64,000 nt of DNA from the NCBI RefSeq assembly GCF_040144835.1, contig NZ_CP151632.1, forward strand, positions 1,302,001 through 1,366,000, written 5' to 3'. The notes below the pieces were generated by a model. It was not told the DNA's origin, did no database searches, and saw nothing but the letters and a program-made list of their open reading frames with translations. Shown piece by piece: positions 19,408 through 55,284 of the stretch (positions are counted from its first letter, which is position 1; every line of letters starts with the position of its first letter). This stretch comes from Microbacterium sp. LWS13-1.2. GTDB taxonomy: Bacteria > Actinomycetota > Actinomycetes > Actinomycetales > Microbacteriaceae. A program made the position numbers and the translations under genes.

Positions 19408-19629
19408 GGAACCTCTCGGGGCGGAAATCAGCCGGCATCCGGCGGGGCCGAACGGGAAAACGGCCGTCCACGATGCTAGTCAGCCACCCTGGGAAATGCC
19501 CAGACGCAACCTCCGTGCGCGCCGTGTCATACTGTTCGTGCGCCCGATGAAGGGCGTGCGGGAAAGCCCCCGCTCATTCCATCACTACGGATCGTCCGGC
19601 ACGTACCTGCCGGTGAAGGAGAAGAGAAC

Positions 19630-52090: not shown

Positions 52091-52753
52091 ATGTCTCGCA
52101 TCACCAGGAAGCGTCTGTCGGCCGGGCTCGCTCTCGCCGTCGCCGCGACCTTCGCGCTGTCCGCCTGTTCGATGGGCGGCTCGGCCGCCGAACCTTCCAC
52201 CGAACCGTCCGCACCCGCCATGGAATCGAGCGAGGCGCCGATGGCGGCCGACCCCGCCGCAGACCTCGTCGGCCCGGGCTGCGCCGCCTACGCCGAGGCC
52301 GTGCCGGACGGCGCCGGCTCGATCGAGGGCATGTCGGCGGACCCGGTCGCGGTGGCGGCATCCAACAATCCGATGCTGACGACCCTCACCGCTGCCGTGA
52401 GCGGCCAGCTGAACCCTGAGGTGGACCTCGTCGACACTCTCAACGGTGACGAGTTCACGGTCTTCGCGCCGGTCGACGAAGCGTTCGCGGCGCTCGACCC
52501 CGCCACGATCGAGTCGCTAAAGACCGACACCGCGACGCTGACATCGATCCTCACCTACCACGTGGTGCCTGGCCGGATCGAGCCCGCCGACATCGCCGGC
52601 ATGCACACCACCGTGCAGGGCGCCGATCTCGAGGTGACCGGCAGCGGCGACGCCTGGATGGTCAACGACGCGAACGTGATCTGCGGCGGCGTGCAGACGG
52701 CCAACGCCACCGTGTATCTCATCGACTCGGTCCTGATGCCTCCGGCACAGTGA
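52091..52753 (+). CDS. Fasciclin-domain lipoprotein (MPT70/MPT83-like)
   Basis: This 220-residue protein starts at ATG 52091 after GGAGGAAG. A signal peptide ends in the lipobox FALSAC (C26), followed by a Pro/Ser/Glu linker and one FAS1 domain (about 88-219) with [32 protein letters not shown] and ending [11 protein letters not shown]. It closely follows the layout of mycobacterial MPT83/MPT70, which are SigK targets. It is surface-exposed and probably adhesive or structural. It diverges from dipZ. Confidence 0.93.
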
Positions 52754-52826: not shown

Positions 52827-52947
52827 GTGTCCACATGCACGCGGTCGCGGGAGAGTCAAGGGTGTGGGCCTGATCAGTTGTGCTGTCTAGCCTTATCCTC
52901 GGCCTGGGGTTGTGCCGGAGGGGTGCGGACACCGGGTGGGAGGAGAC

Positions 52948-54369
52948 GTGACAGACCTGCGCGAGTCGGCGGAGTTGTCCACCGGCGAGATCTTGGACGA
53001 TCGCTACGTCCTGCATGAGCGGATCGGCGAGGGTGGAATGGCGCGCGTCTATCGCGCCGAAGACACCCATCTCCAGCGCTCAGTGGCGGTGAAGGTGTTC
53101 CGAGAGCCCACCGACGGCATCGACTCCGTCGAGCGTGCGCTGTCGGAGACGACGCTCCTCGCCTCTCTGAGTCACCATTCCCTGGTCACCGTGTTCGATG
53201 CTCGCGTGGGCACGGGTGAGACCAGCTACCTGGTCATGGAGCACGTCGACGGCATCACCCTGCGCGATCTCATCGCGCGCGGGTCTGTCGATCCGCGGAT
53301 CGTCGCATCGATCGCGATCGACATCGCGGAGGGCCTGCACGTCGCGCACGAGCACGGGGTCGTGCATCGCGACATCAAGCCCTCGAACGTGCTCCTGTGG
53401 TCATCTCCGCGGCCGGGATGGGAGTGGCGGGCGAAGCTCGCGGACTTCGGCATCGCCTACTTGATGGACACGGCGCGCGTCACGACCCCCGGAGTGATCG
53501 TCGGCACGATGGCGTACGTCGCTCCGGAGCAGGCGCGAGGTGTGCCGCCGGCGCCGGCCGCCGACATCTACGCGTTCGGTCTCCTGCTGATCGAGGCGCT
53601 GACCGGCGAACGCCCGTTCGGCGATGCGGAAGGCATCGGAACCGTTGTGGCACGTCTGTCGTCGGCGCCCGAGATCCCGGAGTCGCTCCACCCGTCGTGG
53701 CAGGGCCTGCTGCGCGGCATGACGGCGATCCGCCCGGACGACCGACCCACCGCGCTCGAGGTCGTGACGGCGGCTTCCCGCCTGGCGGCGATGGAGAACA
53801 CCATCGCCCGTGAAAGGGCCGACCCCGCGACGGTGCCTGTCGCGTCGCCCGTCACCGGCCCTACCCAGGTCTTCCCCGGGCCGGCGCTCGTGGCTCATCC
53901 CCCAGGCCTGGTCGAGCGCGGCGCGCTCCGCCGCGATGCGCGCATGGCCGCCCTCGCCTCGGGAGCTTCGGCAGTGACGGATAGCGCGGCCGTGGTCGTC
54001 CCATCCGTTCCGGACGAGCAGCGCCGACCCTCCCGTCGAGTCCTGGTGATCGGTGCTGTCATCGCGGCGCTGCTGGTGCTCGGACTAGCGCTCGGGTCGC
54101 TGCTGCTGGCGAACAGCTGGTCCCCAGAACCGGACCCCGCATCCACTCCCCCCGCGGAGCAGCTGGCTCCGGCGGTGCCCACCCAGGAGGCTCCGGTCGA
54201 GGATGCGCCGGCGAACGTGCCCGCTGAGCAGCTCCCGGCCGAGGACGTGCCGCCGGTAGACACCGGCGGCGGAGGCGACGTCAACGACAACAGCGGCCCG
54301 GGGAACAACAACGGCAACGGAAACGGAAACGGCAACAGCGGGCGCGGGAACGGGAACGGGCGGGGCTGA
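52948..54369 (+). CDS. Membrane-anchored Ser/Thr protein kinase (PknB-like, no PASTA)
   Basis: This 473-residue protein starts at GTG 52948 after GGGAGGAGAC. The cytoplasmic kinase domain (about 16-285) has the glycine loop GEGGMA, catalytic lysine K49 in VAVKV, HRD at 140-142 (VVHRDIKPSNVLL), DFG at 166-168 and APE at 192-194. A membrane helix lies at about 364-388. The outside part has no PASTA repeats but a Pro/Ala/Glu-rich stalk and a Gly/Asn repeat tail (NGNGNGNGNS). It is encoded alone between the SigK module and the HNH gene. Substrates are unknown. Confidence 0.92.
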   Translation: MTDLRESAELSTGEILDDRYVLHERIGEGGMARVYRAEDTHLQRSVAVKVFREPTDGIDSVERALSETTLLASLSHHSLVTVFDARVGTGETSYLVMEHVDGITLRDLIARGSVDPRIVASIAIDIAEGLHVAHEHGVVHRDIKPSNVLLWSSPRPGWEWRAKLADFGIAYLMDTARVTTPGVIVGTMAYVAPEQARGVPPAPAADIYAFGLLLIEALTGERPFGDAEGIGTVVARLSSAPEIPESLHPSWQGLLRGMTAIRPDDRPTALEVVTAASRLAAMENTIARERADPATVPVASPVTGPTQVFPGPALVAHPPGLVERGALRRDARMAALASGASAVTDSAAVVVPSVPDEQRRPSRRVLVIGAVIAALLVLGLALGSLLLANSWSPEPDPASTPPAEQLAPAVPTQEAPVEDAPANVPAEQLPAEDVPPVDTGGGGDVNDNSGPGNNNGNGNGNGNSGRGNGNGRG

Positions 54370-54376
54370 GCCGCGT

Positions 54377-54841
54377 TCAGCGCGAAGCGATATCGCGCAT
54401 CGCTCGTGATCGCCAGTTGTCGCCGCCGCGCTCGAGCGTCACGATCGCGTGACAGTTGCGGCACCTCACGTCGCACTTGGCGATCTCCTCCGACAGCTTG
54501 GCGATGCTGAACCCCTCCTTGACCATCGCCATGACGTCCTTGCGCTTGTGAGCGCCCGGCCTGTGGTCGAAGTCGAGGACGCGGAGGTCAGTCACACCGC
54601 AATCCGCACACGGGTGGTCGCGCAGGTAGGTCGCGAGGAACGCCTTCGCCTCGGCGCGGCGCTTCGCGGTGCGTTCGACGATGACCCGCACATGACGTTC
54701 ACGATTGCGCGCGTAGTAGTCGCGCGACGACTGCCGGTTGCACTCACGGCATACCTCCTGGAGACCGTCGGGGCGGGACGCCTTGCGGTTGAACTCGGTG
54801 AGCGGCTTTGCGCGCCCGCATGCGCCGCAGTGCTTGCTCAT
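54377..54841 (-). CDS. HNH-type nuclease-like zinc protein
   Basis: This 154-residue protein starts at ATG 54841 after GGAG. It has four CxxC-type pairs: C5/C8, C31/C34, C78/C81 and C127/C130, with DFDHRPG (D92, H93) and CRNCH (H131) forming an HNH/endonuclease VII-like core. The first two pairs look like an N-terminal zinc finger in a basic region. Such proteins occur in actinobacterial chromosomes and phages. It lies 104 bp upstream of, and opposite to, the tRNA-Lys with a group I intron, so a past or present role in intron mobility is conceivable but unproven. Confidence 0.78.
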   Translation of the reverse strand: MSKHCGACGRAKPLTEFNRKASRPDGLQEVCRECNRQSSRDYYARNRERHVRVIVERTAKRRAEAKAFLATYLRDHPCADCGVTDLRVLDFDHRPGAHKRKDVMAMVKEGFSIAKLSEEIAKCDVRCRNCHAIVTLERGGDNWRSRAMRDIASR

Positions 54842-54945
54842 CACGCTCCCGTCTCCTTCCCCAACGCCTCCAGAGGTGGGAACCCACAGCGTAGATGCGG
54901 GCTCCGACGCTCCGACCACCCGCGTCGCCTTGCTAGGGTGGAGGC

Positions 54946-55284
54946 GCCCCTATAGCTCAGTTGGTTAGAGCAACGGACTTCAATACAACAAAATGGAGCG
55001 CCAGCGCCGAAATGCGCTGGATGACCGCCGCTATATGCTGGAACACCCTGAGAGCCCGAGGTACTCGCCAAGTGTCTGAACGACACCTGGCAGTGAAAAT
55101 CCGAGGGATTGGGCAATCAGCAGGTAACCGCAAGGGAACCTCAGAGACTACACGCGGCGCACCTGACCGGTCCGGCCGAAGGTGAAGATATAGTCCAGAC
55201 TGCAAGCCGGAGACGGTGGCTGGGGAAACTCAGTGCAGCAGGTTAATCCGTGGGTCCAGGGTTCGAGCCCCTGTGGGGGCACCA
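54946..55284 (+). tRNA. tRNA-Lys(TTT) gene split by a group I intron
   Basis: Exon 1 is 54946-54980 (acceptor GCCCCTA, D arm GCTC/GAGC, anticodon stem ACGGA, loop start CTT). Exon 2 is 55243-55281 (loop end TTAA, stem TCCGT, variable loop, T arm CAGGG-TTCGAGC-CCCTG, acceptor TGGGGGC, discriminator A), with CCA encoded at 55282-55284. Joining them gives a 74-nt cloverleaf plus CCA with anticodon loop CTTTTAA, that is anticodon TTT. The break lies between positions 34 and 35. A weak promoter TCCGAC-N17-TAGGGT (54911-54939) precedes it. No other tRNA-Lys is in the window. Confidence 0.93.
54981..55242 (+). ncRNA. ORF-less group I intron (self-splicing ribozyme) in tRNA-Lys
   Basis: The 262-nt intron has P1 CTTCA/TGGAG spanning the splice site with the required U.G pair (54980 with 54996); P2 CCAGCGC/GCGCTGG (55001-55007, 55014-55020); P3 CGCCGC/GCGGCG (55026-55031, 55154-55159); P4 TGCTG/CAGCA (55036-55040, 55118-55122); a P5-side hairpin GTGTC/GACAC; P6 GGT/ACC with a GCAA tetraloop (55130-55133); P7 GACTA/TAGTC (55146-55150, 55191-55195) inside the R and S sequences TCAGAGACTACACG and GAAGATATAGTCC; P8 CACCT/AGGTG; and P9 CTGCA/TGCAG. 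The last base is G. The R/S sequences resemble bacterial tRNA introns of the IC3 group. No protein is encoded. Confidence 0.95.

Follow-up and report, generated by a model that had tools for sequence, protein, structure and literature searches.

The window analysed here is a stretch of 64,000 nucleotides from Microbacterium sp. LWS13-1.2 that contains, between positions 54946 and 55284, a tRNA-Lys(UUU) gene interrupted in its anticodon by a group I intron. Upstream of it, in divergent orientation, there is a small gene assigned by sequence to the HNH endonucleases. The main features, with coordinates referring to the window, are as follows.

52121 to 52753, + strand: fasciclin-domain gene (Pfam PF02469, E 1.9e-28), a marker of the tRNA-Lys locus in the genus
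52912 to 54369, + strand: protein kinase gene (Pfam PF00069) upstream of the tRNA locus, found in the same order in the relative G025, whose tRNA is canonical
54377 to 54841, - strand: HNH endonuclease gene, 154 aa from the ATG at 54841, divergent and 105 nt upstream of the tRNA
54946 to 54980, + strand: 5' exon of tRNA-Lys(UUU), with U33 U34 as its last bases (type A tRNA: GCCCCTATAGCTCAGTTGGTTAGAGCAACGGACTT)
54981 to 55242, + strand: group I intron of type A, 262 nt (RF00028, 59.0 bits), with its terminal G at 55242
54995 to 54998, + strand: internal guide GGAG of P1, pairing with C32, U33, U34 (as U.G) and the first intron base
55026 to 55031, + strand: 5' strand of P3, CGCCGC (partner GCGGCG at 55154-55159; CCACUC/GGGUGG in type B)
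55036 to 55040, + strand: 5' strand of P4, UGCUG (partner CAGCA at 55118-55122; UCGGG/CCCGA in type B)
55146 to 55150, + strand: 5' strand of P7, GACUA (partner UAGUC at 55191-55195; GACUG/CAGUC in type B)
55160 to 55184, + strand: stem-loop of P8, CACCU/AGGUG, from the intron comparison
55243 to 55284, + strand: 3' exon of tRNA-Lys(UUU) from U35, with the body of the exon to 55281 and the encoded CCA at 55282-55284

Structure and identity of the split tRNA gene

An earlier note on this DNA had placed a group I intron at site 34/35 of the tRNA-Lys(UUU) anticodon. This was confirmed, the segment 54981-55242 being a complete group I intron between U34 and U35. The search with the Rfam model Intron_gpI (RF00028) that the note had suggested gave a match at 54971-55209 with 59.0 bits (cmscan; gathering cut-off 50, E 2e-12), and ARAGORN, run on the splice product, read the joined exons as tRNA-Lys(TTT). 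The core elements that it had named, P1 with the U.G at the splice site, P2, P3, P4, P6 with a GCAA loop, P7, P8 and the terminal G, are all present in the window intron, and the folding energy is moderately below that of shuffled sequences (z -2.34, with 1 of 200 shuffles equally good). No frame of 90 aa or more lies inside the intron; an antisense frame at 54841-55116, which extends into the exon and the flank, has no Pfam match. The genome consists of one contig of 4,326,447 bases, is 99.99% complete and contains this single Intron_gpI match. We take the site between U34 and U35 to be the same as that of the cyanobacterial tRNA-Leu(UAA) intron, and IC3 is presumably the subgroup of the related bacterial tRNA introns, the Rfam match here being to the general Intron_gpI model only. 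A blastn search of the pre-tRNA found no match in phages, and among plasmids only the 3' exon was matched, in two Arthrobacter records, one of which led to an intronless tRNA-Lys(TTT) homologue.

As the earlier note had expected of ordinary tRNA finders, the split gene is missed by default ARAGORN and by the Rfam tRNA model. When introns were permitted, ARAGORN reported the window gene as tRNA-Asn(GTT), and in the first six loci its labels were Asn(GTT) in five and SeC in one. The Asn label appears because a one-base shift at both splice sites gives the loop CTGTTAA, and all eight compared type A introns (families A and B are described below) are compatible with both registers. The base before the final intron G is A or T in seven of the nine compared type B introns, so that there only the Lys register ends in the terminal G that group I introns need; at later loci intron-permitting ARAGORN gave Lys(TTT) for four type B introns. 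In addition, a plasmid of Arthrobacter sp. zg-Y1110 carries, within a tRNA array, a tRNA-Lys(TTT) gene that has no intron and is the same as the spliced type A tRNA in 71 of 75 aligned positions.

The Rfam tRNA model matched the genome 48 times, 46 of them above the cut-off. In the stretches covering these matches ARAGORN identified 46 genes, including one Asn(GTT) and one Lys(CTT) and no Lys(TTT), and a pattern search for the anticodon loop plus T arm found no intact Lys(TTT) elsewhere in the genome. The window tRNA-Lys(UUU) is the only UUU-reading lysine tRNA found in this complete genome. Of the results that would have spoken against the earlier note, neither a missing Intron_gpI match nor an intact tRNA-Lys(TTT) at another place was obtained. 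The asparagine register was rejected on these grounds together with the type B introns and the plasmid homologue. That the gene is a tRNA-Asn(GUU) or a dead relic has the intron-permitting label and the G-terminal shifted register of type A in its favour, and we give it a negligible chance, since an intact Asn(GTT) exists, no other Lys(TTT) was found, the Lys register is fixed by the type B introns and the plasmid gene, and core and exons are unbroken in the 17 compared introns. The labels that ARAGORN assigned to intron-containing tRNAs in the wider bacterial and viral scans are unreliable and were not taken as identities. Separately, the tRNA-Leu(UAA) of the window genome (L034, G000:C1:1043706-1043778) has only 75 nt according to ARAGORN and lacks the long variable arm that leucine tRNAs should have.

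Intron families and tRNA-Lys alleles across Microbacterium

Initial RF00028 matches were obtained in 6 of 58 genomes, the window genome included. In the genus sample of 159 Microbacterium genomes an intron interrupts tRNA-Lys(UUU) in 21, and the introns fall into two families. Type A introns have 247-269 nt and reside in a tRNA beginning GCCCCTATAGCTCAG; they were found in the window genome (G000), G028, G072, G084, G087, G102, G123, G124, G128 and G160, and in G002 inside an island. Type B introns (217-220 nt) are inserted in the native tRNA-Lys of the genus, which begins GGGCCT, in G001, G004, G014, G064, G086, G088, G097, G121, G165 and G169, and score 31-37 bits with RF00028, below the cut-off of 50. 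The type A host tRNA of the window, located at the native locus, appears to have been imported, as its sequence resembles the plasmid tRNA-array gene and not the native tRNA-Lys.

We compared eight type A and nine type B introns, 13 of these 17 in an alignment. P1, P3, P4, P7 and P8 pair in all of them, and the U.G at the 5' splice site and the terminal G are likewise present in 17 of 17. In P3, P4 and P7 both strands have changed between the two types with pairing kept, a pattern of compensatory change. The helix strings are invariant within each type and the comparison script was anchored on them; therefore it is the contrast between the two types that lends support. Beyond Microbacterium, Agromyces luteolus has an intron of type A and Tsukamurella sp. 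8F one of type B. Related introns are inserted in many other, very different bacterial tRNA genes (at least 119 stretches in a pattern scan of genome contigs which, like that of viral contigs, shows presence and not frequency), and the ribozyme itself therefore belongs to a known, wide family. A contig labelled Alphaproteobacteria has, near tRNA-Gln and tRNA-Thr, what looks like a tRNA-Lys(UUU) interrupted by a short group I intron (L252, 4300-4577); ARAGORN labels this gene Leu(CAA).

The canonical pattern CTTTTAA-N12-20-GGTTCGA was found in 125 of the 159 genomes, the copy in G002 being a 3' remnant only. Thirty loci with this pattern were examined over their whole length. Only that of G002 is incomplete, consisting of the 3' half; the other 29 are whole tRNA genes, and at 22 of them the fetched flank includes the fasciclin-domain gene. 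The uninterrupted allele that the earlier note had proposed to look for in relatives was found in G025, where the order of the fasciclin-domain gene, the kinase, a canonical tRNA and an isochorismatase-domain gene is that of the window, and where no HNH match was obtained. A third kind of altered allele, type C, is a tRNA-Lys(UUU) that has no intron but an aberrant T arm and loop, GAGATATCGTAATTCTC (GGGATGTCGGAATTCCC in G098), present in six Microbacterium genomes (G011, G012, G013, G098, G159 and G173; loci L139, L142, L143, L145, L147 and L160). The loop-plus-T-arm pattern detected no tRNA-Lys(UUU) with a normal T arm in G011, G012 and G013. Type C-like tRNA-Lys genes were also seen outside Microbacterium, at L425 and L426 in two genomes of another genus. 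Among the 34 genomes that lack the canonical pattern, eight are unclassified, namely G122, with 99% completeness, and G016, G062, G113, G130, G131, G146 and G154, with 88% or less.

In G002 the native tRNA-Lys is split into two pieces 21.8 kb apart, nt 1-26 at C1:760641-760616, adjoining the fasciclin-domain gene, and nt 25-75 at C1:738774-738724. Between them there are two tyrosine recombinases and a DUF6262 gene, followed by a type A intron tRNA. With its recombinases, a broken host tRNA and a supplied tRNA, this island has the layout of tRNA-dependent lysogeny or integration. No HNH homologue was found in G002. The 64-kb window contains neither a half of the native tRNA-Lys nor a match to the G002 recombinases. 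These had no match either at the remaining loci with an intron or a type C tRNA that were compared, and a search with a loose cut-off gave weak matches to them at one of the 29 canonical loci. Pieces of the island were recorded as L056 3225-7238 and L091 11616-11641.

The HNH gene and its association with altered alleles

The protein upstream of the tRNA matches PHROG 2255, HNH endonuclease (E 1.4e-34), and its Cys pairs, Asp-His and Cys-x2-Cys-His are invariant in the 13 bacterial rows of the HNH alignment, which places it in the HNH family by sequence. The longer frame at 54377-54919 has no Pfam or NCBIfam match, and a sequence search against PDB gave no match to the protein. The HNH fold is not confirmed, because AlphaFold models the catalytic half poorly (mean pLDDT 67.8, with blocks down to 39). 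The gene is under purifying selection in the nine pairs compared, where dN/dS ranges from 0.11 to 0.24; dS is greater than 1 in eight of them. In the HNH tree, from which M. yannicii (L223) is absent though it has the gene, 3 of 22 inner branches are well supported and types A and C are not separated.

A search of the 159 genomes at E 1e-10 found HNH matches in 26, five of which have distant homologues only (43-46% identity). Close HNH genes, intact or decayed, occur in 21 genomes, all among the 34 without the canonical pattern and in none of the 125 with it (hypergeometric 1e-17, ignoring kinship among genomes). In 20 of the 21 the gene is beside an altered tRNA-Lys(UUU), the exception being G160, where a decayed HNH piece is about 25 kb from the intron tRNA. 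Within the fetched flank, up to 1.5 kb per side, none of the 29 canonical loci has an HNH gene. Where measured, the gene that accompanies types A and C lies upstream of the tRNA in divergent orientation, except in G102 (type A), where it is downstream and co-directional, as it is in type B. It is present in eight of the ten type B genomes. Six intron genomes gave no HNH match in the 159-genome search: in G002, G004, G086, G124 and G128 there is none within the stretch examined, and G072 has a decayed piece only.

Agromyces luteolus has the type A intron tRNA together with the HNH gene; none was seen in the stretches examined of M. ihumii and Tsukamurella. Of 396 genomes of the order, 10 match, the window genome included. 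In the two genomes of another genus with a type C-like tRNA-Lys (G306, G519), this tRNA gene is beside the HNH gene. In G345, also outside Microbacterium, the distance between an open HNH frame and a canonical-looking tRNA-Lys(TTT) is about 160 nt, and this genome counts as a counterexample to a strict rule that the HNH gene occurs only without canonical tRNA-Lys.

The six distant HNH homologues of the genus, one of them a second copy in G014, are all located by tRNA-Arg(UCU), as is an HNH homologue in G451, beyond Microbacterium. At four of the six loci the tRNA-Arg(UCU) bodies are closely similar to one another and unlike the window genome's own tRNA-Arg(UCU), which suggests a parallel replacement at a second tRNA locus. 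The loci at which an HNH homologue accompanies tRNA-Arg(UCU), the body of the tRNA being often unusual, are recorded as L157-L159, L161, L162, L164, L428 and L429. In phages 157 records match the HNH protein, and in the four that we opened (two of them chosen since the listing already named tRNA) the homologue is among tRNA genes; in PegLeg, JimJam and ArcherS7 it overlaps one.

Proposed cassette, alternatives and known systems

We propose the following course of events for the tRNA. The precursor would be transcribed, the guide GGAG would pair with CUU of the anticodon loop, free guanosine would attack after U34, and the exons would join into a mature tRNA-Lys reading AAA. Such GTP-started splicing in two steps is the route of group I introns. 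From the structure and the sole copy, both observed, we infer splicing and the dependence of the cell on it: the intron most likely removes itself, and the decoding of AAA would depend on this, because tRNA-Lys(CUU) does not read AAA. We hold this intron part of the explanation to be nearly certain.

The HNH enzyme, in turn, would cut the canonical uninterrupted tRNA-Lys(UUU) gene, and repair would copy in the endonuclease gene plus a functional tRNA that it could not cut, because the intron splits the target (types A and B) or because the sequence differs (type C). The intron would be the resistant allele of the HNH cassette and, since the target is essential and usually single, the cassette would be a selfish element of the cut-and-replace kind. 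That the enzyme cuts the canonical gene and that the altered tRNAs are resistant alleles we consider an even bet. For the whole explanation, a self-splicing intron plus an HNH homing cassette with resistant tRNA alleles, we estimate a probability of roughly 55%. With odds somewhat below even, this may be a natural cleave-and-rescue element, in which the HNH enzyme would destroy canonical tRNA-Lys(UUU) and travel with an uncuttable replacement, a related HNH lineage acting likewise at tRNA-Arg(UCU).

If the proposal is true, a group I intron would be an immunity device and not a neutral parasite. The predicted splicing would also place the essential decoding of AAA behind a self-splicing RNA in a bacterium, at a gene which standard annotation either overlooks or wrongly calls tRNA-Asn. 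The genus offers a comparative set, with a canonical gene, two introns at one site, an aberrant intronless tRNA and the HNH gene, that makes two questions testable: why anticodon-loop introns persist, be it as a nuclease-resistant allele, as a parasite or as an integrase shield, and whether the replacement of essential tRNA genes can be driven by homing endonucleases.

One alternative is that the locus is a leftover of integration: a phage or island would have broken the native tRNA-Lys(UUU) and brought its own, the element would have decayed, and the HNH gene would be a passenger from a phage tRNA cluster that need not target the locus. The G002 island, which splits the native gene and carries recombinases and a type A intron tRNA, is a case in point, and mycobacteriophage Fionnbharth, in the description of its tRNA-dependent lysogeny, breaks the host tRNA-Lys-TTT and supplies its own (PMC10865867). 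The two share this broken and resupplied tRNA-Lys(UUU) and differ in that the tRNA carried in G002 is split by a ribozyme and accompanied by a recombinase pair and DUF6262, the likeness to the published system being one of gene layout; in the window no island was found. We regard this explanation as unlikely, for type B introns are in native and not foreign tRNA, yet eight of the ten type B genomes have the HNH gene; moreover, the G002 recombinases are unmatched in the window and at the other altered loci compared, and the HNH gene appears to be kept by purifying selection.

Still within the sphere of integration, the intron could have been kept as a shield, since breaking an attachment site would protect the carried tRNA gene from integrases. 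The idea that tRNA introns act against integrating elements in archaea is that of Randau and Soll, as cited in PMC3293823, and a carried tRNA gene serving as a second attB is a speculation made in PMC10865867. It would suit the G002 island, which cut the native gene at nt 25/26 and has its own tRNA-Lys split by an intron. That cut is at the border of the D arm and the anticodon stem, not at the intron site, and G002 is the single island of this kind, none having been noticed in the flanks of the other 20 intron alleles of the 159 genomes, so we think the shield distinctly improbable.

Finally, the intron may be an old immobile passenger of tRNA genes, associated with the HNH gene by shared ancestry only. 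This would fit the lack of frames of 90 aa or more within it, its relatives in very different tRNA genes across bacteria and its persistence where the HNH gene has decayed or was not seen. We find such neutrality very hard to credit when two distinct intron families and a third, intronless tRNA type share one HNH family, and when a close HNH gene occurs in 0 of 125 genomes with the canonical pattern.

The proposed cassette has several relatives among known systems. Group I introns in bacterial tRNA genes are already known (PMC3984707), and the window intron resembles them in size, core, anticodon-loop site, U.G and terminal G; unlike them it has a Lys(UUU) host, is actinobacterial, belongs to a pair of families (A and B) and is often accompanied by an HNH gene that lies outside it. 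A 'group I intron' has been reported in a cyanobacterial tRNA-Lys, with introns of 22-49 nt (PMC5733544), which we judge too short for a group I ribozyme. SegB is encoded beside the tRNA genes of T4 (PMC2988022), and HNH genes are described in the tRNA arrays of mycobacteria, their plasmids and phages (PMC5966550, PMC12803027). Like the window HNH gene, these are small endonuclease genes by tRNA genes, with phage relatives. SegB is a GIY-YIG enzyme that targets a tRNA intergenic region (PMC2988022), whereas the HNH gene here is beside one chromosomal tRNA and, in the genus sample, occurs only with altered alleles. In collaborative homing a free-standing endonuclease aids an intron lacking one (PMC2988022); here too an endonuclease gene is near a group I intron without its own, but the same HNH family also accompanies an intronless tRNA variant and the target is putative. 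A comparable aim is that of the endonuclease of the tRNA-fMet intron, directed at the anticodon region as proposed for the HNH enzyme, but intron-encoded. That enzyme is named I-Ssp6803I. Its specificity for the anticodon region is given by a title cited in PMC3984707.

The two intron families, the non-native host tRNA, the neighbouring HNH gene and the G002 island go beyond the earlier note, whose suggestion that the intron may be undescribed holds in so far as no actinobacterial tRNA-Lys group I intron was found in the literature searched. The main text of the intron database paper (PMC11835236) mentions neither Lys nor actinobacteria, and the same literature gave no description of an HNH gene that goes with altered forms of a single essential tRNA gene of the chromosome. 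As far as that literature goes, the actinobacterial tRNA-Lys(UUU) case and the tie of the HNH gene to altered alleles are new, the ribozyme family and the presence of HNH genes in tRNA arrays being known.

Some minor observations concern other introns and tRNAs. Viral contigs were considered as the source of the type A intron tRNA and rejected, as the seven loci with a type-A-like 5' exon all read as tRNA-Arg(UCU) and are intronless. Introns before a CTAAGC 3' exon, probably in tRNA-Arg(UCU), were seen in gammaproteobacterial and other genomes (L171, L176, L198, L283 and others). A 2014 review placed every phage intron observed until then in a protein gene (PMC3984707). In IMG/VR contigs (L284-L403) there are group I introns that share the core motif and probably interrupt tRNA-Leu(UAA) genes, and GAAAATC follows within 170 nt downstream in 81 of 120 IMG/VR stretches among the matches listed. 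In the window itself, an msiK RNA motif above the Rfam cut-off is located at 19569-19628.
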